DNA of 64,000 nucleotides from an uncultured Planctomycetaceae bacterium (lineage in GTDB: Bacteria > Planctomycetota > Planctomycetia > Gemmatales > Gemmataceae). Shown here one piece after another: positions 11,025 through 38,014 of the stretch (positions within the stretch are counted from its first letter, which is position 1; the number at the start of each line of letters is the position of its first letter). The notes beneath the pieces were generated by a model. It had not been told where the DNA came from, made no database searches, and saw only the letters and a list, made by a program, of their open reading frames with translations. Both the position numbers and the translations under genes were made by a program. Where the stretch lies: positions 1 through 64,000 of the forward strand of contig CALARU010000179.1 in NCBI GenBank assembly GCA_937888715.1. The letters run 5' to 3'.

Positions 11025-12443
11025 TCAGGCAGGTTCTTTCGAGGATTTGTTGATTTTATCTAATTTTGAGAGCGCATCATAACAAGCATATTTATAAATT
11101 TCACTAATGGTTGGATAGTTATAGCAGGTATCAATAAAAACATCGACGCCACCACCCATCACCATAACCGTAAGACCAATATGAACAATTTCGGTAGCCC
11201 CTTCCCCGATGACATGAACACCAAGAAGTTTTTTAGTATCTCGATGAAAAAGCAATTTAAGGAAGCCTTCGGTATCACCAATGATCTGCCCCCTAGCATT
11301 GTTGGCATAACTAGCCTTGCCTGAAACATAAGGGATTTGAGCTTCGTCAAGATGCTCTTCCGACTGCCCAGCAGAGGAACATTCGGGGATGGTGTACAAA
11401 CCACTGGGAAGAAGAGAAGGGAAGTGCACCGATTGCTTAAGATCAAAAGCATGATAAACAGCAATACGCCCCTGAGCCATTGCGGTAGAAGCAAGGGAAG
11501 GATTCCCGATGACATCGCCAGCGGCATAAATATGGGGTTGCTTGGTTTGGAAGTTTTCATTGACAAGAATGTGGCCACGGGAATTGGTGGGGATGTCAAC
11601 ATTTTCAAGACCAATAGAGCCAGATTGCCCAGATCTTCCAGAAGAAACCAAAACCGCATGGGTCTGAATGGTTGTGCCCGATTCGAGTTCGACCTCAACG
11701 ATTTTACCGCACTCAATTTTCATTACCGAATCACCCATGAAGAATTTGATGCCTGCGGATTCCATTCGTGATTTCAAAGAGCTAGAAATTTCACTATCCA
11801 TCCCTCCAACAATCTTCTCGGATTTTTCCACCACGCAAACACGAACCCCTAAAGCCGCAAACATACATGCATATTCGCAACCAATAACACCACCACCAAT
11901 AACCAACATACTTTCAGGAATAACATCAAGAGTTAAGATAGTGTCGGAATCAAGAATCCTCGGGTCGTGAAAGGGGAAATTCTTGGGCCTGAAAGGATAA
12001 GAACCTGTTGCAATGAGAAACCGATCCGCCTTCAATTGAATCTCAGGACAACGATCAGGCTTTATAACAACAGTTTCCGAATCAACAAAAGAAGACATCC
12101 CACGGTATACAGTGATACCATGCCTGGCGAGATTTTCGCGAATGCGCTGGCGTTCATGATCGGTGACAAAGCGTTCATGCGCCATGAAATCACTGATATG
12201 AATGGTTTTCATCATATCAACCTGAAACCCAAACAGTTTTCTTTGCTTAAACCCCGAGAGGTAAAGGGCCGATTCCCGCAAAGTTTTAGAAGGCAGGGTG
12301 CCAGTGTTGGCAGCAGCACCGCCGAGCACATTTTCTTTTTCAATAAGCGCAACTTTTTTACCAAAGTACGCAGCAGCAGCAGCACCCTTTTCACCTGCAG
12401 GTCCAGAGCCGAGTACTACCAAATCAAACTTTTCAACGCTCAT
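11025..12443 (-). CDS. sthA: Soluble pyridine nucleotide transhydrogenase (SthA-like)
   Basis: A 472-residue flavoprotein disulfide reductase fold: FAD motif GSGPAGEKGAAAAA near 12, NAD(P) motif GGGVIGCEYACMFAALG near 180, second FAD motif YAAGDVIG, and a C-terminal dimer domain with CYNYPTISEIYKYA. The redox-active cysteine pair of lipoamide dehydrogenases is absent; the position reads GGAAANTGTLPSK. That loss, with the SthA-like C-terminus, supports transfer of hydride between NADPH and NAD+. It is the last gene of the redox operon, 28 bases after the Fe-S/cNMP-domain gene, so it may set the NADH supply of that complex. Confidence 0.88.
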   Translation of the reverse strand: MSVEKFDLVVLGSGPAGEKGAAAAAYFGKKVALIEKENVLGGAAANTGTLPSKTLRESALYLSGFKQRKLFGFQVDMMKTIHISDFMAHERFVTDHERQRIRENLARHGITVYRGMSSFVDSETVVIKPDRCPEIQLKADRFLIATGSYPFRPKNFPFHDPRILDSDTILTLDVIPESMLVIGGGVIGCEYACMFAALGVRVCVVEKSEKIVGGMDSEISSSLKSRMESAGIKFFMGDSVMKIECGKIVEVELESGTTIQTHAVLVSSGRSGQSGSIGLENVDIPTNSRGHILVNENFQTKQPHIYAAGDVIGNPSLASTAMAQGRIAVYHAFDLKQSVHFPSLLPSGLYTIPECSSAGQSEEHLDEAQIPYVSGKASYANNARGQIIGDTEGFLKLLFHRDTKKLLGVHVIGEGATEIVHIGLTVMVMGGGVDVFIDTCYNYPTISEIYKYACYDALSKLDKINKSSKEPA

Positions 12444-12471
12444 TATTTATTCTTTTCCAACCATCAAGGCT

Positions 12472-14814
12472 TTAATTTTTAACGGATTCAACTTTTTTGA
12501 TCAACTCTGCACCACTCATACGATGTGCAGCATCATGAGGACAAGCGTAAACACAACTAGGCTGGCCATCAACCGATTCGCAAAGGTCACACATGGTTGC
12601 TTTTTGCTGAACAACCGCAACCTTGTAACCTGGCCTGTTAATATCATCAATCTTTTCATTGGTTTCGAAAGGCTGCATGTTGATATTACCATAGGGGCAA
12701 TTCTGAGCGCATTTCCCACACCCGATGCACCAGTTTTCGATGGTCATCTCGCGTTTTTTGCCACGGTGAATTGCATCCACCGGGCACCCAACCATGCAAT
12801 AAGGATCAAGGCAAGATCTGCAGGAACTTGCAACAAGGAAATTTTCGAAGCGAAGGCCTTCACGAACCAATCTGGTCACCCCTTGATGCGTATCAGCGCA
12901 AGCCTTGGTGCATTCATCGCAGCGAGTGCATTTTTCGAGATCCAACACCAATAAACTACGAGCTTCCATCAAGCCCTGTTTAAGAAAATCATTTAGGTTG
13001 TTGCTCTCAACTTTTTGAACCTGCCTTTGAATTTCGGTAATTCTTTCCAAAGCAATTGCGACCATCTTTTCACGAATCTTTGGAAAATTCTCGAGGATGA
13101 GTTTAAAATCTTGACCACTGATGCTGACGAGATCCACATGATCCAAAGCAGTAGCGCTGGCAGTTCTACCTTGAGTAAGCAATTTGCCTTTCAACTCTGC
13201 AAGATGTCCCATGAGTGCGATTTCGCCAACCATGCCGCCTGGGCCGGTGTAATTGATAACATGATCACCGCCTGGTTGCTTGAGCCAGATTTTGACAAAA
13301 CCAATGCGCACCAAGTAGAAATTATTTTCCGCATCACCCTGCCTGAAAAGAACATCACCCGGATTCAAGCGAACGAGATTCGCCTTCTCTCGCACGAGAT
13401 CAACAAACTTTTCAAAATCCTTATCATCAGTAAATTGCTCAGCAAACAAGGGGATGCTGCGCAAATGAGTACTGATGGATCTTTTGTTATATACCCCATC
13501 GAGAATGGCCTTGCTCTCTTTATTTCGTTGCAGAATGTAAAGCACATTCCTGCGGATTTCAAGAAGGCTTACATCCGTTTTAGCACGAACCGTTGCAGAC
13601 CTTGGATAATTATTCATGCAGGTCATTTCGCCAAATAAAACATCTTCCTTGGTCAACTGAGCAATGGGATTGCTGGTGTTAAGGCTTACAGGCGCATCAA
13701 TGGAAATGTAGCGGGCTTTTTTCTCTTCCTCCCTTGAAGCGGTGGAGAGCGTCGTGGTGAACTTTTTGATCAAACCTAGAAACCCACTCGATTGCGTGTT
13801 CTTAATATGATTCAAAGGGCTTTTTAAAAACACATCAACCACACCCTCTTCAATGATGAATGCGGTCGAGCCAGATTCACCTTCATTACAGATGATTTCG
13901 CCCTGCTTGAATTTCCTTCGTATGACCGATCCTTGATTCCATTCCATAAAGGGCTTGCTGATGCCCTTAAAAAGTTCATGCGTGAATAGATCGTCCAACG
14001 AAACAGGCAATGCCCCGGGTTGATCACCAAGATTAGAACTTACAAGTTTCTTATTCGTAAGCGCACCCGTAGGGCAGGAAGCCATGCATTCGCCACACGA
14101 TACGCACGAAGAATTCCCCATCGGATCATTAAGATCAAATGAAATCCTAGTCTTGAAACCTTTGTTCATTCTGCCAAGGACTTCATTATGGCGAACTTCA
14201 TTGCATGCCCTGACACAGCGATCGCAAAGAATACAAGCATTATGATCAACCGAAATAATCATCGAGCTATCATCGGTGCCACGGTCGTTGGGGTTTTTAG
14301 GAAAGCGGGAAGCATGGGGATCCATGCCAAGTTTTTTGGCAATGGTGCGAAGCTCATTGTCGCCGTACTCCCTGTTTACTACACGAGGAACTTCATTATC
14401 AACCAGGAGAAGTTCGGTAAGAATCTTGACGGAGTTTTTAACTTTGTCGCTGGTTGCGCCTGTGGAAACTTTCATGCCCTCTTCAACGGGTCGATGGCAA
14501 GCAGCAACCAGGGTGCGAGCACCAATATCAACAGCACAAAACCTACATACTGCAACGGGTTCCATATGTTCGCGATGACAAAGAATAGGGATGAAAACCC
14601 CCGCTTTCTGTGCCGCATCTAAAATGGTGGTCAACTTGGGTTTCAATTCGCCAGTAATCGGATTCTTAGAAAGAGTGGCGCGGGCGATCTCCACCTCTTT
14701 GCCATCAATTGTAATTTTGATGGGAGGCGCCTTTAATAAATCCGAGGCAATGCGGTCGAGTTCAACAACCCTGCCATCCACCACCATAGGGAACAATTCT
14801 TCAGCTACATTCAT
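12472..14814 (-). CDS. Multi-cluster Fe-S protein with two cyclic-nucleotide-binding domains
   Basis: A 780-residue cytoplasmic protein without signal peptide. Order: NuoG-type [2Fe-2S] ferredoxin domain (Cys 79, 90, 93, 106); two [4Fe-4S] motifs (194/197/200/204 and 237/240/243/247); two cNMP-binding-type domains (about 295-445 and 470-605, the second with GEIALMG); then a four-cluster ferredoxin domain like the beta subunits of DMSO reductase or formate dehydrogenase (motifs starting at 629, 665, 696 and 742). The Cys/His motif for the NuoG N5 cluster is missing. The start is the ATG at 14814, which has GGAGG six bases upstream; a TTG seven codons earlier is less likely. It presumably accepts electrons from the NuoE-NuoF protein encoded just upstream. 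Whether the cNMP domains bind a ligand is unknown. Confidence 0.85.
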   Translation of the reverse strand: MNVAEELFPMVVDGRVVELDRIASDLLKAPPIKITIDGKEVEIARATLSKNPITGELKPKLTTILDAAQKAGVFIPILCHREHMEPVAVCRFCAVDIGARTLVAACHRPVEEGMKVSTGATSDKVKNSVKILTELLLVDNEVPRVVNREYGDNELRTIAKKLGMDPHASRFPKNPNDRGTDDSSMIISVDHNACILCDRCVRACNEVRHNEVLGRMNKGFKTRISFDLNDPMGNSSCVSCGECMASCPTGALTNKKLVSSNLGDQPGALPVSLDDLFTHELFKGISKPFMEWNQGSVIRRKFKQGEIICNEGESGSTAFIIEEGVVDVFLKSPLNHIKNTQSSGFLGLIKKFTTTLSTASREEEKKARYISIDAPVSLNTSNPIAQLTKEDVLFGEMTCMNNYPRSATVRAKTDVSLLEIRRNVLYILQRNKESKAILDGVYNKRSISTHLRSIPLFAEQFTDDKDFEKFVDLVREKANLVRLNPGDVLFRQGDAENNFYLVRIGFVKIWLKQPGGDHVINYTGPGGMVGEIALMGHLAELKGKLLTQGRTASATALDHVDLVSISGQDFKLILENFPKIREKMVAIALERITEIQRQVQKVESNNLNDFLKQGLMEARSLLVLDLEKCTRCDECTKACADTHQGVTRLVREGLRFENFLVASSCRSCLDPYCMVGCPVDAIHRGKKREMTIENWCIGCGKCAQNCPYGNINMQPFETNEKIDDINRPGYKVAVVQQKATMCDLCESVDGQPSCVYACPHDAAHRMSGAELIKKVESVKN

Positions 14815-14853
14815 CGCCAACCTCCAAGGCCGCAAGGGCCCCTATCTTTAAAA

Positions 14854-16560
14854 TCAAACTTGTTTTAAATAGTTTTCAACTTCTTCAGGGAAGAACTTCA
14901 ACAGACTAGTGATGGGATTGGATGCCACCTGCCCCAACCCGCAAATCGAGGTTATCCCCATTGTCTCACCCAGTTCATTAATAAGCCCAAGCTCTTTACG
15001 GCCCGACTTACCTTCCATCAAATTCGTGATGATATCGACTAACTTTTGTGAACCGGTTCTGCAAGGAACACATTTTCCACACGATTCATTCCGGTAAAAA
15101 GAAACACAATTCAAGGCGTTGTCGAGCATGTCTCTGCGATCATCATAAACGATAAAAGCAGCACCCAACATGCCGCCCATCTGCCCAACCGTATTAAGAT
15201 CCAAAGGCAGTTCAAGAATATCATAAAGCTTGACCCCAGCAGGAACTTTATCTTGTACGAATTTAACGGGCAACTTTTCGACAGGAACCTTCGCAGGTAA
15301 AAATCCACCCGAAGGCCCTGAGGTTGCAATCGCTTTAAGCGTATGCCCCTGCAACATTCCACCCGCTGTATCAAAAATCAACTCTTTAACCGTCTGGCCA
15401 AAAGGCACTTCGTAAACACCAGGCTTTTGCACATCGCCACTGATCGAAACAATGCGCATCCCTGTCGCTCCACGGATGCCCTTATCGCGATACCATTCTC
15501 CGCCATTGAGTGCTATTCCCGGAATCCAAGAAAGTGTTTCAACATTATTGATGACAGTAGGTTTACCAAACAGCCCTTCAAAAACTGGGAAAGGTGGCTT
15601 GTTCCTAGGTTCGCCACGCTTATCTTCGATGGCTTCTAAAAGCGCACTTTCCTCACCCTGCACATAACCCCCTGGGCTGATGAAAAGCTCGAGCATGAAC
15701 TTTTTCCCAGTGCCCAATACATTTTTACCTATCACACCTAAACCTGCTGCAGTGATTAAAGCCTCTTTGAGTACTTTAACTTCATCGATGTATTCATGGC
15801 GGATGTAGAGGTAACCTTTTTCAGCACCAGTGATGAGAGCAGCTAAAACCATACCTTCAATCACAAGGTAAGGTGCTCTGCGCATGAGTTCGCGATCTTT
15901 GAAAGTACCTGGTTCGCTTTCATCTGCATTGCAAACGATGTATTTTACATTTCCGGGAGCTCCCTTAACAGCAGACCATTTACGAAAGGTAGGGAACCCT
16001 GCACCTCCCATGCCTCGAAGCACCGAAACTTCCATCTTTTTCAGCAACGCTGCATGATCCATGCCCCCAGCAACAAACTGTTTCACAGCCTCATAAGGCT
16101 CGCCATTCTGATAGGGATTGATTTGAAAAGGAAGGGTAGAATTATCCAAATGCTGATGGGGAAGCTCTTCTTTCGCAGCAGCTTTTCTTGCCAACTCGGA
16201 TAAGCTCTTAAGATCCATACCACGATAAACATGATGATCGTTGATCAACGCAGCGACGGTTGCATCGCACTGTCCCAGGCAGGAAACACCACAAACTTCG
16301 ATTTTCCCGGGCCCAAGTTCCCTCGAAAGATTCTCCAGCCCTTGGGTGATTTCTGGTGCACCATGAATATGGCACGCCATATCCCTGCAAACTTTAATGC
16401 TTGCGCCTTTGGCTGGCTCCAACCTGTACAGCGGATAAAAACTTGCCACTTCATGTATGCGATGCAAGGGTACACCCGTGCGCTTGGAAAGCGAATGCAT
16501 TTCATCATGGGGCAAATAGCCACATCTATCCTGAATTTCTTTTAATGCCTGAACTAACAT
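14854..16560 (-). CDS. NuoE-NuoF fusion, NADH-oxidising flavoprotein subunit
   Basis: A 568-residue natural fusion of the two subunits that oxidise NADH in complex I and related hydrogenases. Residues 1-130 are NuoE-like, with [2Fe-2S] ligands Cys58, Cys63, Cys94 and Cys98. The remainder is NuoF-like: NADH-site glycine-rich RGMGGAGFPTF at 182-192, FMN region GGYVQGEESALLEAIEDKRG, and [4Fe-4S] ligands Cys494, Cys497, Cys500 and Cys540. A good ribosome site (GGGAGAAAG) precedes the ATG. No proton-pumping Nuo subunits are nearby, so this is not complex I. Gene order places it between the cytochromes and the Fe-S hub. Confidence 0.9.
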   Translation of the reverse strand: MLVQALKEIQDRCGYLPHDEMHSLSKRTGVPLHRIHEVASFYPLYRLEPAKGASIKVCRDMACHIHGAPEITQGLENLSRELGPGKIEVCGVSCLGQCDATVAALINDHHVYRGMDLKSLSELARKAAAKEELPHQHLDNSTLPFQINPYQNGEPYEAVKQFVAGGMDHAALLKKMEVSVLRGMGGAGFPTFRKWSAVKGAPGNVKYIVCNADESEPGTFKDRELMRRAPYLVIEGMVLAALITGAEKGYLYIRHEYIDEVKVLKEALITAAGLGVIGKNVLGTGKKFMLELFISPGGYVQGEESALLEAIEDKRGEPRNKPPFPVFEGLFGKPTVINNVETLSWIPGIALNGGEWYRDKGIRGATGMRIVSISGDVQKPGVYEVPFGQTVKELIFDTAGGMLQGHTLKAIATSGPSGGFLPAKVPVEKLPVKFVQDKVPAGVKLYDILELPLDLNTVGQMGGMLGAAFIVYDDRRDMLDNALNCVSFYRNESCGKCVPCRTGSQKLVDIITNLMEGKSGRKELGLINELGETMGITSICGLGQVASNPITSLLKFFPEEVENYLKQV

Positions 16561-16612
16561 ATCTTTCTCCCAAAGCCTGTCACAATTACAGTGTGCTTAA
16601 TACATCATCCCT

Positions 16613-18241
16613 TTATGGAATTGGTTTTTGCATCTGCTCGATGGTGCGAAGTATTTTCGGATCCCACGCAGCAGCACCAACACCCTGGTATGGTTGATCC
16701 CCATGATGATAGTTATGGCATTCCACACAATCATGATTAACCCCGGCTTGCGCCACCCCTGCAACAAATTTGGCAGGCGCATGGCAACTTCTGCAGTTAT
16801 CAATTCCGGGAAGTAAAATATCATTTTTCGTAATGGAGTTATTCGCAGCACCATGGCATGAAGCACAATCCATGAACCGATGGGCAGAATGATCGAACTT
16901 GGCATGAGGCATCCAAAGCGAAGGGATGGAAGGCCAAACAATCTTAGCAGGATCGCCTGCTCTCGAATCTTTAAACCATTGGAAGGCCTTGCTATCAGGG
17001 TCTAAGCCCGTTTGGATCAGCTTTGGAATCTGAGTGAAACCAGGGTTGATACTCTTCGTGGCACCTTTTTCATAATGACATTCGCCACAGGTTTTCTTGC
17101 CCAAAAACAGATTGTTCATTGCGACAGAAACCTTGGCATCAACTTGCTTTTTCACCGATTCAACCACAGGCGCCAAAGGGTTCTTTCCCGGAATGGGTAC
17201 AGGCAATACTTCTCTTGGTTTTGAAAACTCCTTAGTTTCAAGCACCAATTGCTTGGAGTAAAAACCTTCTAAGTAAGAGCGTATTTCTTCAGGTTGATAT
17301 CGATGGGGTACGGATTCGTTTTTATTCGAATCATCAAAGGAAAGCGGATGGCAGGCTTTGCAATGCACATCGTAAACAATCGGTTGATAAACCCCACCCT
17401 TGGATCTTTCCGCATGAACCGATTTAGGCATGTTGGCAAATGTACCGGGCGAAGGCTTGGCATCTGCAGATTCAAGGTTATGGCAAGCCTTGCAATCAAG
17501 AGCGATAGCAGTCTTTAAATCCATACCCTTCTGATATCCAAATCTCTCTCGTTCAAGCTCTGGAATATCTGAGTAAGTCCAAGGCTTGCCCTTGGGGTCA
17601 AGGGATACACCAGGCGTCAGGTGCAACTTGTGGTTGAATTTAACGGTACCTGGGTCGGTCATTTTCTCTGCCAACAATCTGAAATCAGGGTGCCCCTGCG
17701 AGGCTGTTGCAAAAGAGGTTATATTCGGAGCGTATTTCGGAGTGGCACCTGCTGTAAGATGGCCCTGCATATTCGTATGACACGAAATACAATCAGAATC
17801 GGGCAGGCGCACAATGCTGGCATCTAAGCCACGATGCTCACGATGGCAACCACCACAACTAGGAGTTGATTCAAGCTTTTGATTGGCATGATGCACTGGT
17901 GCGACATGGCAACTTTCGCAGCGTGCATCGCCTGAAAGATTTTTACCTGCTTCGTGGCCCAACCAACTCATGCTGAAACTATTTTTGCTGATGGGTTCAA
18001 AATCGGAATGGCAGACGGTGCAATTATCATTCCAGGCAGCGTGAAACTTAGTCACCTGGCCTCTGGAAAATGCAACCTGACCTTTTTCACCCTGCGCATA
18101 TACCAACGCCATCCAACCAACTGCGACCAATAAACAGATAAGAGCCAAGGTCGACTTGGTACGATCCAAATAGGTCGACTTTTTGTAATAGTCGAGCTGG
18201 ATTCTTGTCGCGCGCTGTTTTCCGCTTTCTTGGAAAGCCAT
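16613..18241 (-). CDS. Membrane-anchored decahaem cytochrome c
   Basis: A 542-residue protein with ten CxxCH motifs: CTVCH, CESCH, CGGCH, CISCH, CKACH, CKACH, CGECH, CASCH, CRSCH and CVECH. A basic N-terminus followed by a hydrophobic segment at about 29-50 should anchor it in the membrane with the haem part outside the cytoplasm. GAGGGATCC directly before the ATG is a fair ribosome site. It starts 12 bases after the membrane b-type gene, so the two are coupled. It likely receives electrons from the b-type subunit, or gives electrons to it. The terminal acceptor or donor cannot be told from sequence. Confidence 0.88.
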   Translation of the reverse strand: MAFQESGKQRATRIQLDYYKKSTYLDRTKSTLALICLLVAVGWMALVYAQGEKGQVAFSRGQVTKFHAAWNDNCTVCHSDFEPISKNSFSMSWLGHEAGKNLSGDARCESCHVAPVHHANQKLESTPSCGGCHREHRGLDASIVRLPDSDCISCHTNMQGHLTAGATPKYAPNITSFATASQGHPDFRLLAEKMTDPGTVKFNHKLHLTPGVSLDPKGKPWTYSDIPELERERFGYQKGMDLKTAIALDCKACHNLESADAKPSPGTFANMPKSVHAERSKGGVYQPIVYDVHCKACHPLSFDDSNKNESVPHRYQPEEIRSYLEGFYSKQLVLETKEFSKPREVLPVPIPGKNPLAPVVESVKKQVDAKVSVAMNNLFLGKKTCGECHYEKGATKSINPGFTQIPKLIQTGLDPDSKAFQWFKDSRAGDPAKIVWPSIPSLWMPHAKFDHSAHRFMDCASCHGAANNSITKNDILLPGIDNCRSCHAPAKFVAGVAQAGVNHDCVECHNYHHGDQPYQGVGAAAWDPKILRTIEQMQKPIP

Positions 18242-18253
18242 GGATCCCTCGAT

Positions 18254-19207
18254 TTACCAGTATTTCATAGCCACAAAAACATGAACAAACATCAACACGA
18301 TCAAAGCAACAGAAAGGGGCAGATGCACCCATAACCAGCTATGAAGCCAGAAGTGGATTTTCGCCTGAGTAATGATTTGCCTGCGTTGATTGCAAAGATC
18401 TTCCAAAACTGCAACCACTTCATGGGCCGCGGGAGGTAACTTTGTCCGCAAAGAATTAAACATCGAATGAGCCCGGGCAGGATTTTGCAAAGGCGACTTT
18501 GCAATCTCGCCATTCTTCAAAAACCCATAAATATGCTCGTTGAAAAAATCATACAACGGCTTACTATCAGGCACGCTTTCCTGCAAGCTGGAAGTTACCA
18601 CCACCCGGCCCTGGATTGCGCCTGTACTACGAACCGCACCGACCACCATATGGGAACCGTCTGAAAACTTTTCTGCATCATCGGAATCTGAAGTGATGTT
18701 GCAAACAGATCGAACTAGGCGAGAAGCTTCCGCAGCCATCAATTCTGAAACATAATTAATTTGCGAAAAAATTGTTTCAGCAGGGACTTCTTTCAACATC
18801 TTTTCAGGCAAAAACTGTTGCAATACCAAACCCCATACTCCACTCGCAATCACCACCAAAAACAAAGTCATCAAAGTGCTGCTAAAAGGCCCACCCCAGC
18901 GGAAGCCTGTATGAAGTACCAACAGGGGCACCGCAAGTAATCCAAGCCAGATATGGGCACGCATCCAAGTAGAGACTTTTCCTATGCGCCACGATCTTAA
19001 TTTTTTTCGAGGCCAGATTAGAAATTCGAACAAACAAATCAGACCACCTATGACACCGAAAGTAAACCCAGGTAAACTACTACCACTAGGCCATTCTGCT
19101 TGGCCTACTGAAGCAAAAATAAACCAGACTACAGCCAAGGCAAGTACAACCGAGGAAGCAAGAACCCAAGGGTAATGTTCTGCAAAGTTTGATTTGCGTA
19201 TTAACAC
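18254..19207 (-). CDS. Cytochrome b561-like integral membrane protein
   Basis: A 317-residue protein with hydrophobic segments near 11-34, 44-64, 84-100, 110-132 and 290-313. Histidines fit haem b ligation: His85 and His99 in AHIWLGLLAVPLLVLHTGF, and His289/His295 and His309 in the last membrane helix region. A soluble loop (about 140-280) separates the helices. I infer a b-type membrane anchor linking the cytoplasmic Fe-S proteins to the exported decahaem cytochrome. The start is GTG at 19207. This is the first gene of the operon. Family assignment rests on His placement, so a non-haem membrane protein is possible. Confidence 0.65.
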   Translation of the reverse strand: MLIRKSNFAEHYPWVLASSVVLALAVVWFIFASVGQAEWPSGSSLPGFTFGVIGGLICLFEFLIWPRKKLRSWRIGKVSTWMRAHIWLGLLAVPLLVLHTGFRWGGPFSSTLMTLFLVVIASGVWGLVLQQFLPEKMLKEVPAETIFSQINYVSELMAAEASRLVRSVCNITSDSDDAEKFSDGSHMVVGAVRSTGAIQGRVVVTSSLQESVPDSKPLYDFFNEHIYGFLKNGEIAKSPLQNPARAHSMFNSLRTKLPPAAHEVVAVLEDLCNQRRQIITQAKIHFWLHSWLWVHLPLSVALIVLMFVHVFVAMKYW

Positions 19208-19368
19208 TGATTTTTAATCCTTCACTCAATAAAATTCAGATAAAAGAATTAACTTTAATATATCGAATATTTCCTACCACCCTATCATAATATTGACTAA
19301 AAATAGAATAACTGTTGATACCGTAAAATGTAAATTTTCAGTGAGAAATATTAAAAGAAATACCGTTT
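19208..19368. promoter_or_regulatory. Divergent promoter region of the cytochrome operons
   Basis: This AT-rich gap lies between two divergent genes and must hold promoters for both. A TTGACT (19293-19298) could be a -35 element for the rightward gene, but no good -10 box is correctly spaced. No clear operator palindrome was found. Confidence 0.4.
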
Positions 19369-29755: not shown

Positions 29756-30841
29756 TCAAACAACCACAGGGGAAGTATTACTGACCCGGGTGCCTTTCCA
29801 TTGCAGATAGGCAAGAAGCAGAGCGCCCGCAAGGAATAGAAATAGGCTAACATTGCTTTCTAAAGAAACCGGCCTAGGGTCGCTGCGTAACAACTCATTA
29901 AGAAACCTATGCATTGCATAGAACATCATCAAAATAGCAGTTAACTGACCCACCCTGGTTTGAAACGGTTCGAAGGAAAGAAGAAAAAACAAAAGCAAAG
30001 CCATGCTTATGGTTTCGTAAAGTTGTGCAGGATGAAGGCCCAAGCCATGGGGTTGCAAAACCAATTCTTGTTTGCCTTGGATTTTGAGTTGCAGAGTTTT
30101 CTTGCCTCTGGGCCAATCATTGTTAAGAATCATCCCGAGATCGAATGGGTTCTTAACCATCTGGCCTTCGGCTTCGATGATGATATCACCTTCAGAGATG
30201 CCTAGTTTTTTTGCAGGGGAATCGGGTTCAACTTTACCAACGACAGCTCCCTGCCCTTTTTGATTCTCTGAAAAGGTAAAGCCCGTTGCAGTTTGCAAAC
30301 CAGCGCGCACAAGATCATAGCGGGCCGGAGCAGATAACGGAAAATGAATCGCAATCGCTGGTTGCGAGGGCTCCACGATCTGACCAAAACAACAGCCATT
30401 CATGAGGCAGCCAATTCTTCCAATTGCAATACCCAAGGCAACCGAGGGTGCGAGGATATCGATAACCAAAAGGGGCTCAATGCGTTTTGGCCTAAGCACC
30501 ATGAACCAATAGGCAAAAAATCCGAGAGTGCCTCCCAAAACCGAGCCATAGAGAATGATGCCACCATCCCAGATGCGGGGGAAATTCATCAGAAATTCTG
30601 TAAAGGTGAGTTTTTGTTCGTAGAGGAAAAGAGTTCTAGCGCCTAGAAGGCCCGCAACAAATATCCACACGGATAAATCATGCACGATTTGTGCATCAAT
30701 ACCTTTTGCTACCGCTCGTTTTCCTGCAAGCCAGGTGCAAACGATGAAGGCAATAAAAAGCATCATACCAAAGCCATAAACCGGAATACCTTCGGGTGTA
30801 AAGCTGGTATAAACAGGTATACGAAAAAGAATCTGCATCAT
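29756..30841 (-). CDS. lgt: Prolipoprotein diacylglyceryl transferase with an inserted PDZ-like domain
   Basis: Lgt moves diacylglycerol from phosphatidylglycerol to the lipobox Cys of prolipoproteins in the cytoplasmic membrane. Features of the family: ILYGSVLGG near 97, GRIGCLMNGCCFG at 141-153, HPAQLYE at 270-276, and several membrane helices on both sides. At 361 residues it is about 70-90 longer than usual. The excess is an insertion at about 185-262 that reads as a PDZ domain (VVGKVEPDSPAKKLGISEGD, then a GQMVKN-type strand), a fold that binds peptide C-termini. The reading frame is continuous through the junctions. Confidence 0.9.
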   Translation of the reverse strand: MMQILFRIPVYTSFTPEGIPVYGFGMMLFIAFIVCTWLAGKRAVAKGIDAQIVHDLSVWIFVAGLLGARTLFLYEQKLTFTEFLMNFPRIWDGGIILYGSVLGGTLGFFAYWFMVLRPKRIEPLLVIDILAPSVALGIAIGRIGCLMNGCCFGQIVEPSQPAIAIHFPLSAPARYDLVRAGLQTATGFTFSENQKGQGAVVGKVEPDSPAKKLGISEGDIIIEAEGQMVKNPFDLGMILNNDWPRGKKTLQLKIQGKQELVLQPHGLGLHPAQLYETISMALLLFFLLSFEPFQTRVGQLTAILMMFYAMHRFLNELLRSDPRPVSLESNVSLFLFLAGALLLAYLQWKGTRVSNTSPVVV

Positions 30842-32607: not shown

Positions 32608-33546
32608 TCAAGGCTTGGTTTTTTGACCTAAAGGCATCAGATTAATTTCCAAACCACCCGCGCCTAAGTTTTGATCCAACAAACCTAAGTTCCCCTGATC
32701 GCGAAGTTTTGCAAAGATTTTACCCCGCTCTTCCTGCCAGATTTGAAGGAGATAATCGGGATTGGTTTTTCGGCCTTCAAGATATTGCTGAAGCCTTGCG
32801 AGAAAGCGTTCTGCATCTTTACTAGCTTGTAGAATCATGTTGTTGGTAATAGCCAAGGTTTCTTGTTCGAGCCTGAATTTATCGGATTCTGACTGCCTAA
32901 GTTTACTTTCGGTGTCCTGCTCTGCCTTATTAAGCATTGTGGTTACGGAAGTTTGGGCCCTAGCAACAGAATCAAAAGAAGGTTTAACTTCATCAGGCGG
33001 CGCAACAAGAGAAACACGAACGTCCAAGAGTTGGACTCCGAGATTACAGTCTTGGATTCTCTGTGTAGTTTTATTAAGGATTGCAGGGCCCATCGAAATC
33101 TTGCCAGCTAGCAATGCTTCATCAACGGTTTTACTTGCAATCCACATTGCAGTTTCAGATTCAACATAGCGTTTCAAAAATTCGGGAATGATGGGAGCAT
33201 TGATCGCGAAATCAACTTCCATGCCCGGCTCTACTTTATAATAAACAGTCACTTGAACATTAACGAGGTTGTTATCGCCTGTAAGCATCTGGCCTGGGGG
33301 CAGAGGTTTGCCTCCATCATCTTCAAAAAATCCAACAGCAATATTATTCACCTTATCAACAGCAATTCGATCAACGCGATCCATGCCATAAGGAAGACCG
33401 ATGAAAAGGCCAGGGTCCGCAAGTTGGGGCAACGGCTTACCAAAGCGCCTGATAACTCCCTTTTCACCCGGCCTAATCTGAGTAAATCCAGTCAGCAGAT
33501 AGAAACCTAGAACGAGGGCAATTAAAACCAGCAGTGTTTTTCTCAT
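32608..33546 (-). CDS. SPFH/band-7 protein, HflK-like
   Basis: A 312-residue membrane-anchored SPFH protein: N-terminal helix (about 4-22), then the band-7 domain with GEKGVIRRFGKPL, followed by a helical region with Glu/Lys repeats. GQMLTGDNNLVNVQVTVYYKV resembles HflK more than HflC. HflK/HflC form ring assemblies that hold and restrain the FtsH protease. This is the third gene of the operon; its ATG overlaps the stop of the HflC-like gene (ATGA, 33543-33546). It is a second HflK-like unit besides the one fused to the ATPase. Confidence 0.85.
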   Translation of the reverse strand: MRKTLLVLIALVLGFYLLTGFTQIRPGEKGVIRRFGKPLPQLADPGLFIGLPYGMDRVDRIAVDKVNNIAVGFFEDDGGKPLPPGQMLTGDNNLVNVQVTVYYKVEPGMEVDFAINAPIIPEFLKRYVESETAMWIASKTVDEALLAGKISMGPAILNKTTQRIQDCNLGVQLLDVRVSLVAPPDEVKPSFDSVARAQTSVTTMLNKAEQDTESKLRQSESDKFRLEQETLAITNNMILQASKDAERFLARLQQYLEGRKTNPDYLLQIWQEERGKIFAKLRDQGNLGLLDQNLGAGGLEINLMPLGQKTKP

Positions 33547-34532
33547 GGCTTAGCCCCTTTGGTTTCGGGGGCTTTAATAGAGCCTTGTGGGGGTGAAAAA
33601 AGCAGGTCGAACAATTCTCTATGGGTTCCTAGAAGTAAAACTGTTTTGTTATCACCCAAGATGCGTTGATACTCTTCCAACTTTTTGAGGAAGGTATAAA
33701 ACTGGGGATCACGAGATTGCGCCTGAGACCGCAAGCGATCGGATTGAGCTTCTGCCTGGCCTTTCATGCGGATGGATTCTGCTTCGCTAGAGGCACGAAG
33801 TTGAGCGACATTTTTCTCGCCCGCACTGCGTATATCTGCAGCTTTTCGTTCGCCCTCGCTTTGGTACTGAGCCGCTTTTTTATCCCGCTCGCTGATAATG
33901 CGATCGAAAATAGCCTGCCTAACCGCAGGCGGATGATTCGCTCTTCGCAACCTGATATCAACCACCTCAATACCATAATCAGCAGATGCAGATTCTTGAA
34001 GAGATTTTCCATTGGCCCTGCCTGGTTCAAGCAAAAGCTTAGTGCGTAGAATCTCGCGTTGTTTTTCAACCTTGCCCTCTTCGATACTTACAAGATCATC
34101 AAGTTCCATGGTGCCAATGGCTGCGCCAAGCTCTGAATTAATGCGCTGGGCTAAAATAGCTTTAGCGCCTTCAATGGTGTTCACGGTGCGAAGAAAAGTA
34201 TCAACGCCCTTGGCATCGCGGATACGCCAGCAGATGTAGGCATCGAGGCTAAGAGTTTTATCGATGGTATTGCGTTGGGTATCGCGGGTAAGAAGTTCAA
34301 CACTTGGAAGGTCGAAGAATTGTATTCTGCGATCAAGGCGAAGCACAGCTTGAATGGGCCAGGGCAATTTGAAATGCAATCCTGCCTGCGAAGAATCAGC
34401 GCCATCAAAAGTTTCGAGGTGTCTGCCAAATTGAGTAAGGTAAACAAACTCAGCCCGATCAACAGTAAAAATGCACTGGGGCATTACGGATAAAAGAACT
34501 AGTATGGCGAGTGATATTAAGAAAGTTTTCAT
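33543..34532 (-). CDS. SPFH/band-7 protein, HflC-like
   Basis: A 329-residue protein with an N-terminal membrane helix (about 3-22), then TVDRAEFVYLTQFGR, LTRDTQRNTIDKTLSLDAYICWRI and YGIEVVDIRLRRANHPPAV, which follow HflC closely. A long helical Ala/Glu/Arg-rich region (about 215-275) should form the coiled-coil wall of the SPFH ring. It begins within the stop of the ATPase-HflK gene (ATGA, 34529-34532) and overlaps the next gene by four bases. Tight coupling suggests the three proteins assemble in fixed ratio. Confidence 0.88.
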   Translation of the reverse strand: MKTFLISLAILVLLSVMPQCIFTVDRAEFVYLTQFGRHLETFDGADSSQAGLHFKLPWPIQAVLRLDRRIQFFDLPSVELLTRDTQRNTIDKTLSLDAYICWRIRDAKGVDTFLRTVNTIEGAKAILAQRINSELGAAIGTMELDDLVSIEEGKVEKQREILRTKLLLEPGRANGKSLQESASADYGIEVVDIRLRRANHPPAVRQAIFDRIISERDKKAAQYQSEGERKAADIRSAGEKNVAQLRASSEAESIRMKGQAEAQSDRLRSQAQSRDPQFYTFLKKLEEYQRILGDNKTVLLLGTHRELFDLLFSPPQGSIKAPETKGAKP

Positions 34533-37500
34533 GGTGAAAGTCCTCCGTCATTGCTTTTGGGGGCAGGTTTTTGCCTATCCACAGGAGCAGAAGAAAAGCC
34601 GGGCATGCGGAAAAAGTCTGAAGGCATCAGCCAAAGGTTGCTTTTAACGGGTTTATCAGAATCGAGGATGATTTTATCCCTGCCAGCAAGAGCAGAAGAG
34701 ATAGCGTTCCAGAACCTTCTAAAGTCCGCGAGGGACTTCCAAGAATCTCTACGGGCCTTGAGTTGTTCCAAGGTAATGCGGGCAGCCTCATCAGGCTTCA
34801 TCCCTTCTAAAACTTCGATCAAAGAACTGGTGATAAGAAGAAAATCATCGTAGGCAGAAGGGCCAACTCTACTGGAAAGAAGAGCCAAAGTAACATCGGC
34901 CTGAGCTTTGGTTTTATCGATAACCTCATCCTTAAAAGCTTGCGCGAGCCTCTCTTTTAGAAGTGCCCTGCCTTGTTCATCTGCAAGTTTGATCAACACT
35001 GCGCCTTGGGCATCGTTGATTTTTCTATCTCGCATTTCCATGGCTTGGGTAACTGCGTAATAAGATCGCACCACTTCTTGCGGGGGATGCAAATCGTGAA
35101 GAGATAAACCTTCAAGCCTGATGCCCATGACTGAAGCATCAAGATTTGTAATGCGAGTTTCCAAGAGATTAGCAGCTTGAAATTGAAACTTGCCCCGATC
35201 TTCTGTCAACAAAGCACCCAACGATTTTGAGCCTACCAACTCACGCAAAATCGATTCAGTATTGGCGCGAAGGATGGCTTCGACATCATTGCAATTGAAA
35301 AGGAACTTACGATGATCGGTGATTGCGTAACGAATGCTTCCCTGGATTTCCATGAGGTTGCCATCGCCTGTGATCATGACGGATTCATCAGGGACTCTGT
35401 AAAACCCTTCGCTTTCATGCCTGCTGTTCCATGCGCCCGACTCTGATGTAACCTTACCGTTGGAGAGAGTGCGGAACCCGATTTCGAGGGTGCGTACTTT
35501 GGAAGGTTGAATGCGGGTGACTTTTTCGAAGGGGAAGGGCAAGCGCCAGTGCAAGCCGGGTTCCAATTGATCCTCCAAGAGGCGACCCATCCGTTGCACC
35601 AACCCGATTTCATTGGATTGGATTTGCGTAAACCCAAAAGAAAGCCATATCAAAAGCAATGTTGCAAAGGTGCCTGTAAGAACTTTTTGCCAGTTGTGGA
35701 AGATGAAGTCGAAATGCTCATCGATATCGAGCAGACGATCTACAAAGGTGCCAACTTTATCGGTGAACTTCGCCAACGAATTAGAAGCTGAAAGATTGGA
35801 TTCCCGTTGATACCATAAAAGCCGCATCGAGTTCAACAACACAGCAAAGGAACCGAATTGATGATAAACCACTGCAAATAGGGGTGATTGTTCCATCCAA
35901 TCGGTGGGGGCAAACAAAGGCCAAAGCCAGCCTGTGATGACAATACCAACAATGTTGACACCAAAAGCGAAGTAAAGAATGTTCTGGTTGATGGTTTGCA
36001 AAGTTGCCCGAGAAAGCCCTATCAACAAAGGAAGAGAGCGAAGCGGATCGCCTAAAAGAACCACATCGCCAGATTCTGCAACGACCTCGATCCCGGAGGG
36101 GCCACCCACAGCAAGGCCCACATTAGAACGCGCCAATGCTGGAGCATCATTAATCCCATCGCCCACCATTGCAACCCGATGCGTGGAAGACATCTCTACG
36201 ATAATTTTCTCTTTATCTGCGGGAAGCAATCCGCCATGACATTCATCAATTCCTAGATATTTTGCAACTTGATCCGCAACGATAGGTCGATCGCCAGAGA
36301 GAAGGGCGATGCGCTCGATTCCCATTTCGCGCAGTTTAGAAATAACGCCTGCAGCTTCTGGGCGAATGCGATCGCGGGCCCCAAATAACGCTTGAACTTT
36401 TGCATCGATACACGCCACCATCACGGTCTGGCCTGTAGTTTCAAAACTCTTGATTGCATCATCTACAGATACGGGGATGGTAATACCACGCTCAAGAAAA
36501 AGCCTTGGAGTACCAACAAGAATGTTTTTACCATCAATAAAAGCTTCGACCCCAAATCCAGGAAGTGCTTTAAAATCAATTGCTTGCGAAAGAGCTAGCC
36601 CTTTTATTTTTGCAGAGTGAACGAGAAGCTTTGCTAGTGGATGTTCGCTAGATTGCTCAACACTTGCAACCAAGCGCAAGGCCTCATCAGCATTAAAACC
36701 ATCCTCTGCAAACCAAGTTTGGCCGAGTTCTAATCTGCCCTCGGTAAGGGTGCCGGTTTTATCAAAAGCGAAGGCATTGATTTGTGCAAGTTGTTCGAGT
36801 GAGTTTCCGCCTTTGATTAAAATTCCCGTGCCTGCAAGCCTGCCCATTGCTGCAATCATTGCTGCAGGAGTAGCAAGGATAAGTGCGCACGGGCATGCAA
36901 CAACAAGGATGGAAAGAGCAGGATAAAGTGCTGCGCGAAGGGCGGTATAAAATCCAGGCTTGGGAAGTTCGGGATTACGAAACCAACCCAACTGACTTAC
37001 GATTAAGAACGCAAGAAAAGTGATTGCAGCGAGGCCAAGAACAACAGGAAGGAACCATCGTGCAAGTCGGTCTGCAGTTCGCTCAAGTTTATTTTTCGAA
37101 GCCAGGGCTTTTACGGTAAGGTCGAAAACCCTGCCAGCAGCGGTATCATTTCCAACTTTAAGAACCGTGAAGGTGAGTGCGCCCAAGCCATTCAAACAGC
37201 CTGCAAGAATGGTGTCACCCGAAGTTTTCAGATGAGGAATACTTTCACCTGTAAGGGCAGCGGTGTTGACTTCGGAAGTGCCATCAAGGATAAGGCCATC
37301 CGCAGGAATGCGAGCGCCCGGCTTAACTCTGACGGTATCGCCAACTTTAAGATCTTCAACAAGAATGCGTTCTTCATTACCCGAGGCGTCGACCCGCCAG
37401 CATCTGCGCGGAAAAAGTTCGAGCATCCCCCTCAGCGCTTTTTGTGTGCGATCAAAAGTAATGCCTTCCAAGCATTCACCAACAAGGCCAATGAATACAA

Positions 37501-37837
37501 CTTCTGCAGCAACGAGGGGTTCCCTAATTAGAATCGCAGCAATGCAAGCAATAGCGAGTGCGAGGTCTGCGCCCATTCTTCCCTGAAGAAGAGAATCGAG
37601 CGAGCCATAAAGCACCCGGGCCCCGCCAAGGATTGCAGCAATAAGAGCAATCCGAAAACCACGAACCTCATTGGGAAAAGCTGGGATGGCCAAACCCGTC
37701 CAGAGTTCGATGCGGGATGAAACCCAGGGAAGAATATCCCACCCGATTAAGAAGCCAAGTATAATTGTAAGGAGATAGAGTGAAGTTCTACTTTCACTTT
37801 GAAAAGCCTTGTCCGATTGAGAGATTTCACGATGCAT
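34529..37837 (-). CDS. P1B-type metal ATPase fused to an HflK-like SPFH domain
   Basis: 1102 residues from the ATG at 37837; a TTG at 37912 would add 25 residues and is possible. Residues 1-680 form a P-type ATPase: TGES (196-199), CPC metal site (315-317), phosphorylated Asp in DKTGT (359-363), the HP motif (399-400) and GDGINDAP (559-566). There is no N-terminal CxxC metal-binding domain. The last helices carry FGVN (625-628) and YHQFGSFAVLLNS (658-670), which match neither the standard copper nor zinc signatures, so metal choice is open. A membrane helix (718-738) and an SPFH domain (about 737-935) with MITGDGNLMEIQGSIRYAI then follow, HflK-like. Both parts look complete. First gene of the three-gene SPFH operon. 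Confidence 0.9.
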   Translation of the reverse strand: MHREISQSDKAFQSESRTSLYLLTIILGFLIGWDILPWVSSRIELWTGLAIPAFPNEVRGFRIALIAAILGGARVLYGSLDSLLQGRMGADLALAIACIAAILIREPLVAAEVVFIGLVGECLEGITFDRTQKALRGMLELFPRRCWRVDASGNEERILVEDLKVGDTVRVKPGARIPADGLILDGTSEVNTAALTGESIPHLKTSGDTILAGCLNGLGALTFTVLKVGNDTAAGRVFDLTVKALASKNKLERTADRLARWFLPVVLGLAAITFLAFLIVSQLGWFRNPELPKPGFYTALRAALYPALSILVVACPCALILATPAAMIAAMGRLAGTGILIKGGNSLEQLAQINAFAFDKTGTLTEGRLELGQTWFAEDGFNADEALRLVASVEQSSEHPLAKLLVHSAKIKGLALSQAIDFKALPGFGVEAFIDGKNILVGTPRLFLERGITIPVSVDDAIKSFETTGQTVMVACIDAKVQALFGARDRIRPEAAGVISKLREMGIERIALLSGDRPIVADQVAKYLGIDECHGGLLPADKEKIIVEMSSTHRVAMVGDGINDAPALARSNVGLAVGGPSGIEVVAESGDVVLLGDPLRSLPLLIGLSRATLQTINQNILYFAFGVNIVGIVITGWLWPLFAPTDWMEQSPLFAVVYHQFGSFAVLLNSMRLLWYQRESNLSASNSLAKFTDKVGTFVDRLLDIDEHFDFIFHNWQKVLTGTFATLLLIWLSFGFTQIQSNEIGLVQRMGRLLEDQLEPGLHWRLPFPFEKVTRIQPSKVRTLEIGFRTLSNGKVTSESGAWNSRHESEGFYRVPDESVMITGDGNLMEIQGSIRYAITDHRKFLFNCNDVEAILRANTESILRELVGSKSLGALLTEDRGKFQFQAANLLETRITNLDASVMGIRLEGLSLHDLHPPQEVVRSYYAVTQAMEMRDRKINDAQGAVLIKLADEQGRALLKERLAQAFKDEVIDKTKAQADVTLALLSSRVGPSAYDDFLLITSSLIEVLEGMKPDEAARITLEQLKARRDSWKSLADFRRFWNAISSALAGRDKIILDSDKPVKSNLWLMPSDFFRMPGFSSAPVDRQKPAPKSNDGGLSP

Positions 37838-38014
37838 GTTCAGGAAGCTACGGGTTAGTGTAAGATCAATTCCAACGCAGCCGAGCTTCCTTGACAGATT
37901 GCGTACCTCCAATTTATGGGGTAAGTCGGGATGCAGTCAAGGAAACAATGCGAAGTATGAAAGAGAGATTTGTGTAGGCAGCGTCATAAATAAACCGGAT
38001 ATTGATGTTAAGGA

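Follow-up and report, generated by a model that had tools for sequence, protein, structure and literature searches.

What might an NADH-oxidizing module do in an operon that also encodes a cytochrome b-like membrane protein and an exported decahaem cytochrome, and that has no proton-pumping subunit? The question is raised by five genes in the window, the 64,000-nucleotide stretch of planctomycete DNA analyzed here (contig CALARU010000179.1 of assembly GCA_937888715.1), which an earlier note had proposed to encode a single electron-transfer complex. Our analysis suggests, with about even confidence, that the operon encodes a non-pumping, NADH-oxidizing complex that would export electrons across the inner membrane to an outer-membrane conduit. 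This reading draws on cofactor motifs, gene sets, conservation, co-occurrence and a predicted barrel, all derived from sequence.

Organization and conservation of the operon

The minus-strand genes follow the order CYB-MHC-NuoEF-FES-SthA (Table 1), with gaps of 12, 52, 39 and 28 bases when ATG 14814 is taken as the FES start. All five lie at the coordinates and with the short spacing first described, and Pfam and NCBIfam domain scans agree with the protein identities proposed at that time. The FES ATG is preceded by GGAGG at 14825-14821 and most homologues begin near the same ATG; the upstream TTG is probably not the true start. Beyond the five genes first noted, the divergent C554 belongs to the gene set. 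The region between CYB and C554 is a probable promoter region, and a sigma-70-type promoter scan found sites in it no commoner than chance.

Table 1. Coordinates of the operon genes and the adjoining features in the window
Feature	Position	Strand	Description
SthA-type NAD(P)+ transhydrogenase	11025..12443	-	accessory neighbour; NF003585
FES	12472..14814	-	780 aa from ATG 14814 (787 aa from TTG 14835)
NuoE-NuoF fusion (NuoEF)	14854..16560	-	568 aa; NADH, FMN, 2Fe-2S and 4Fe-4S sites
MHC	16613..18241	-	542 aa; decahaem c-type cytochrome, single N-terminal membrane/signal helix
CYB	18254..19207	-	317 aa, GTG start; integral membrane di-haem cytochrome b-like protein
CYB/C554 divergent intergenic region	19208..19368	.	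basis: position only
C554	19369..20799	+	476 aa; exported, divergent; four CXXCH and a conserved CX4CH; PF13435

Each of the seven genomes available for the window's genus carries the operon; in one, the contig stops inside MHC, and another has an interrupted transhydrogenase frame. Other Gemmataceae retain CYB-MHC-NuoEF-FES, followed in some by the transhydrogenase. Conservation in other planctomycetes, proposed earlier as a check, holds, and it reaches Acidobacteriota and Rokubacteria as well: when the FES alignment was scanned against 84,980 species genomes and the best 80 loci were taken, more than half were from Acidobacteriota and a few from Rokubacteria, with the remainder mostly from Planctomycetota. 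A system confined to planctomycetes was rejected on these matches. The operon is also present in the cultured species Tautonia sociabilis, Roseiconus nitratireducens and Rhodopirellula sallentina. Among the 53 well-flanked loci (at least 5 kb on either side), NuoEF adjoined FES in every case, CYB and MHC were present and adjacent to one another in 48, the four genes were co-located in 48, and a C554-type gene lay near the operon in 43. Three arrangements of these four genes were seen in all, NuoEF-FES-CYB-MHC (47), CYB-MHC-NuoEF-FES (15) and a convergent form (2). Since the neighbouring genes played no part in the search, their recurrence is independent evidence, and the recurrence of the gene set in several phyla is more than chance. 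In more distant genomes, FES has no NuoG-like part and NuoEF is absent, and CYB, MHC and often a tetrahaem gene are still present; it follows that the NADH part is an added module and the core itself more general.

The record titles of five loci (L088, L108, L109, L139 and L159) name Candidatus Kuenenia, Actinobacteria or Rhodanobacteraceae, in conflict with their FES, which groups with Gemmataceae/Isosphaeraceae, Rokubacteria or Acidobacteriota; these are probably mislabelled or misbinned MAGs.

The transhydrogenase is of the SthA type (NF003585, 548 bits, above the curated cut-off of 465), and its proximity to FES is rare, within 400 bases in 5 of the 53 well-flanked loci. It was rejected as a core part for this reason, and the complex of five genes first proposed is reduced to a core of CYB, MHC, NuoEF and FES with the transhydrogenase as a loose neighbour. 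In some Gemmataceae, this neighbour could convert NADPH to NADH for export.

Elsewhere in the window, a P-type ATPase is fused to an SPFH/Band 7 domain (34529-37912, minus strand), with a further pair of Band 7 genes after it (33543-34532 and 32608-33546), an unusual fusion and cluster. A prolipoprotein diacylglyceryl transferase (Lgt; 29756-30841, minus strand) carries a PDZ insertion at roughly residues 184-252.

The NADH and iron-sulfur module

Pfam/NCBIfam scans of NuoEF identified the 2Fe-2S thioredoxin-like (PF01257), Complex1_51K (PF01512) and NADH_4Fe-4S (PF10589) domains. Its NADH, FMN and cluster residues are retained in an alignment of 69 rows, at least 95% of which conserve the cluster cysteines C58, C63, C94 and C98, and C494, C497, C500 and C540. 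For FES, the same scans gave Fer2_4, Fer4, cNMP and again Fer4, an architecture in which a NuoG/HoxU-like N-terminus leads to two cNMP domains and then to a C-terminal part with four 4Fe-4S clusters. Cysteine motifs indicate one 2Fe-2S and two 4Fe-4S clusters in the NuoG-like part and four 4Fe-4S clusters at the C-terminus, in agreement with the seven counted in the earlier note, and the C-terminal cluster cysteines, sixteen ligands in total, are all invariant across 26 diverse homologues.

The first cNMP domain of FES carries the motif FGEM...PRSATV, a phosphate-binding cassette with its ribose Glu and phosphate Arg, and G402, E403, R412 and A414 of this cassette are invariant in 26 rows. A cyclic-nucleotide ligand is plausible because the window genome contains eleven cyclase domains; with the cassette also intact, the sequence makes control of FES by cAMP or cGMP plausible. 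In one Rokubacteria and one Acidobacteriota genome, genes downstream of the operon encode an NDH-2 that itself ends in a cNMP domain at the C-terminus and an FHA-GAF-cyclase (L148, 14796-16397, plus strand; L136, 7653-9275, plus strand); they may have some connection with the cNMP domains in FES.

The NuoE/NuoF sites and the N-terminal 2Fe-2S/4Fe-4S part of FES are shared with NuoEFG, HoxEFU, HydABC and NAD-dependent formate dehydrogenase. Unlike these complex I relatives, the operon has no NuoBCDI, membrane arm, hydrogenase or molybdopterin domain, and FES runs on into cNMP and four 4Fe-4S domains, with the N5 His-Cys3 site degenerate or lost. This N5-type ligand set of NuoG (window about 14260-14420) is gone in the window's lineage, reads H-x3-C-x2-[H/Q]-x5-C in 46 relatives, and is degenerate in most FES members.

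Several familiar identities could be set aside. No complex I membrane arm or quinone module was found among the operon genes or their recurrent neighbours, and the Pfam/NCBIfam scans upheld the earlier observation that the operon contains no membrane arm, hydrogenase or formate dehydrogenase subunit. A complex I remnant was rejected because the genome has a separate complex I (NuoL/M/N-type genes on other contigs, and another NuoEF) and because the operon is accompanied by conserved partners of its own; two haem-copper oxidases are also encoded in the genome. The diaphorase of a hydrogenase or formate dehydrogenase was rejected because Pfam detected no H-cluster or molybdopterin catalytic domain, and a match to TIGR02512 covers the ferredoxin-like part only (positions 2-74 of 375). 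HydB carries an extra ferredoxin domain, which the operon NuoEF lacks; NuoEF ends after the N3 cluster, so that nothing supports electron bifurcation of the HydB type.

Haem proteins and a proposed path through the membrane

CYB was assigned to no significant Pfam family (DUF4405 scored 17.9 bits against a cut-off of 26.7), matches no NrfD-like or DsrM-like model of Pfam or NCBIfam, and has no solved-structure relatives by sequence search or Foldseek (E 1e-3). When CYB was considered against the known cytochrome b fold families (b561, DUF4405), duodenal cytochrome b reached a Z of 7.6 over 132 residues, in the midst of unrelated helical rows of middling Z. Four histidines are invariant in 41-53 homologues and form two pairs, H85/H99 and H295/H309, each 14 apart, and the AlphaFold2 model (pLDDT 90) consists of long helices. 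As judged from sequence and model, the two pairs would lie on two helices with the spacing expected of two membrane-stacked b haems.

Many di-haem cytochromes b react with quinones. With a quinone site in CYB, the complex would act either as an NADH:quinone oxidoreductase that does not pump or as an exporter fed by quinol, NADH being an extra input in the latter case. Such a source would also suit the older cores without NuoEF, which must draw their electrons from elsewhere. However, no known quinone-site motif was identified in CYB, and in every form of the core FES, with its C-terminal cluster ligands, is an evident source of electrons for CYB on the cytoplasmic side; we therefore consider a quinone-reactive CYB unlikely.

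All ten CXXCH motifs of MHC are invariant in 47 homologues, as are nine further histidines, with one more nearly invariant. These ten additional histidines would suffice for ten bis-His haems, with ligands assigned by inference, which argues for electron transfer rather than catalysis. The Pfam matches of MHC are of the c7/c3 type (Cytochrome_C7-type decahaem), and its score against the DmsE decahaem family is 17 bits, where the cut-off is 192. C554 matches the cytochrome c554 family, with haem motifs conserved in 58 rows, and is a probable periplasmic relay. The numbers of CXXCH motifs, exactly ten in MHC and four in C554, are constant in nearly all loci.

Direction of electron flow

Gene context supports the earlier proposal that an NADH-oxidizing FMN/Fe-S module is tied to the di-haem CYB in the membrane and to the exported decahaem MHC. 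In the mechanism that we propose, NuoEF would accept electrons from cytoplasmic NADH onto FMN and pass them through the NuoE and NuoF clusters to the three N-terminal and then the four C-terminal clusters of FES. CYB would be the docking partner of FES, its two b haems conducting electrons through the membrane, and the ten haems of MHC, followed by C554, would carry them through the periplasm. A beta-barrel and a large ten-haem LVIVD cytochrome, encoded on contig C120 of the same genome, could then deliver them at the cell surface to an acceptor outside. The flow may be set by cAMP or cGMP through the cNMP domains. We infer that the proteins form a complex, that flow is outward and may be gated, and that the large cytochrome is placed where it could serve such an acceptor.

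The outward direction is favoured because the membrane potential draws electrons from the cytoplasm to the periplasm and opposes the reverse. In a complex with no proton-pumping subunit, export could thus deliver electrons below the potential of NADH, and inward reduction of NAD+ would need donors of very low potential. The same chain might nevertheless run inward, with a donor in the periplasm or outside the cell supplying electrons by way of the outer conduit, MHC and CYB for the reduction of NAD+ on NuoEF: the chemistry of NuoEF is reversible, an identical gene set would serve, and the porin-cytochrome chains of known bacteria operate in both directions. Inward flow would have to overcome the energetic barrier just described; no donor-specific enzyme recurs among the operon neighbours, and the SthA neighbour suits a consumer of NADH better. 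On this balance, we regard an electron-importing function as improbable, and export from NADH as the preferred reading.

A predicted outer-membrane pair

Clustering of the genes that neighbour the operon revealed two recurrent partners in Acidobacteriota, Rokubacteria and Planctomycetota. The first encodes an exported LVIVD cytochrome of about 1250-1370 residues, with LVIVD repeats and nine CXXCH plus one CX4CH (or ten CXXCH). The second encodes a protein of about 600-800 residues with CarboxypepD_reg as its only Pfam match and a C-terminal aromatic residue that resembles an outer-membrane beta-signal; its AlphaFold2 model, of moderate quality (pLDDT 71, pTM 0.62), is a beta-barrel behind an N-terminal beta domain, and among solved structures it is most like AlgE, a barrel of the outer membrane (E 1.7e-15, TM 0.68 on target). 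In the window genome, both genes stand side by side on contig C120, unlinked to the operon, with the cytochrome cut by the contig end and a divergent HbpS-like gene beside the pair, as in a relative.

The two parts of the proposed chain are distributed together. In co-occurrence tests, whose significance is overstated because related genomes are counted as independent, FES-type and large-cytochrome genes each occurred in 63 of 95 genomes of the family (both in 61, one only in 2 and 2, neither in 30; p = 5e-20), and the large cytochrome accompanied 13 of the 15 strong FES matches among 199 Planctomycetota against 12 of the 184 others (p = 6e-12), and 7 of the 9 FES among 199 Acidobacteriota against 13 of the 190 others (p = 1e-6). 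The large cytochrome was present in 38 of 43 FES-bearing genomes taken from the named scan; many of the five that gave no match are incomplete MAGs. Thirteen of the 20 Acidobacteriota with the large cytochrome have no close FES, which indicates that this cytochrome also serves other inner modules.

The complex might alternatively stop in the periplasm and feed a reductase or detoxification enzyme there, for example through the C554-type proteins that are usually nearby and match the cytochrome c554 family, with the outer pair, on its separate contig in the window genome, having a distinct function and a similar distribution; we give this little weight, given that operon and pair adjoin in many genomes and that their co-occurrence within the family is exact at the genus level (26 genera with both, 13 with neither, zero exceptions). 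The earlier description of a complex ending at the periplasm was incomplete: the core of NADH module, CYB and MHC stands, and comparative data point to a longer chain that would run via C554 to the outer pair.

A secreted HbpS-like protein recurs beside the barrel and LVIVD pair or the operon (L188, 4930-7530, plus strand; L192, 1880-4465, minus strand; L102, 5387-6883, minus strand). Other planctomycetes encode the LVIVD cytochrome and the barrel near a different inner module without NuoEF (L214, 78-7317; L215, 3616-9805), with 18-haem and 15-haem cytochromes (range 15-18), a remote FES and a cytochrome b on the same contig.

Origin of the NADH-linked form

FES proteins with a nearby NuoEF all grouped together when 109 FES cores were placed in a maximum-likelihood tree; their single clade (85 rows, SH-aLRT 99) is nested within cores that lack NuoEF. 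This topology suggests that an older transmembrane core gained its NADH input once, and the mixture of Planctomycetota, Acidobacteriota and Rokubacteria near the base of the clade points to gene transfer; the deepest forks of the tree are unsure because of long branches. A more tentative reading, one possibility among others, is that the system performs quinone-independent, second-messenger-gated extracellular electron transfer drawing directly on NADH. It would have arisen once, when a complex I-type NADH module docked onto the older core of cNMP-FeS protein, cytochrome b and decahaem cytochrome, and would later have been dispersed through Planctomycetota, Acidobacteriota and Rokubacteria, of which many are presumed to be aerobes.

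Relation to known systems and implications

In Hmc, Tmc and DsrMKJOP of sulfate reducers, a cytoplasmic Fe-S protein, a membrane cytochrome b and a periplasmic multihaem cytochrome c are linked across the inner membrane. The operon resembles them in this layout and differs in having no NrfD-like subunit and in possessing the NADH module and cNMP domains. Flavin-based extracellular electron transfer in Listeria (Ndh2/Eet) feeds outside acceptors from cytoplasmic NADH through NDH-2, quinone and flavins; the NADH source is alike, whereas the Listeria route is without decahaem or outer-membrane parts.

Like MtrCAB of Shewanella, Omb/Oma/Omc of Geobacter and PioAB/MtoAB, the chain proposed here combines an outer-membrane barrel and multihaem cytochrome with periplasmic cytochromes and an inner-membrane module. 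The predicted barrel gene adjoins an exported LVIVD multihaem gene, as is general for porin-cytochrome conduits, but in the searches made the barrel and cytochrome match neither the MtrB nor the MtrA/DmsE families. The surveyed inner-membrane entries to electron export in Gram-negative bacteria, CymA, CbcL/MtoC/MtrH and ImcH, act on the quinone pool as quinol oxidases or quinone reductases (PMC6295460); in contrast to the quinol oxidases CymA, CbcL and ImcH, the inner module here is NADH-linked. Comparable porin-multihaem clusters with a proposed role in electron export were described by He et al. 2017 (PMC5615132) in Verrucomicrobia, PVC bacteria of soil and freshwater, with eight-haem periplasmic cytochromes and an undefined inner-membrane step. 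Conduits of the MtrB and Ext type are reported from Holophaga (PMC7399161). These two reports were the nearest found in the open-access full-text literature (subscription papers and preprints lie outside it), which yielded no published description of the gene set. Our best reading, held with moderate confidence, is a novel version of electron transfer across the envelope in which electrons enter directly from NADH.

If this reading is true, direct NADH entry bypassing the quinone pool would be a different bioenergetic design, one in which the reducing power of the exported electrons would depend in part on the membrane potential. Conservation of the cNMP domains suggests cAMP or cGMP as possible switches for such export. 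Redox exchange with humics or iron is suspected, and unexplained, in soil Acidobacteria and in Planctomycetes of freshwater and soil; the gene set would provide named genes to test there.
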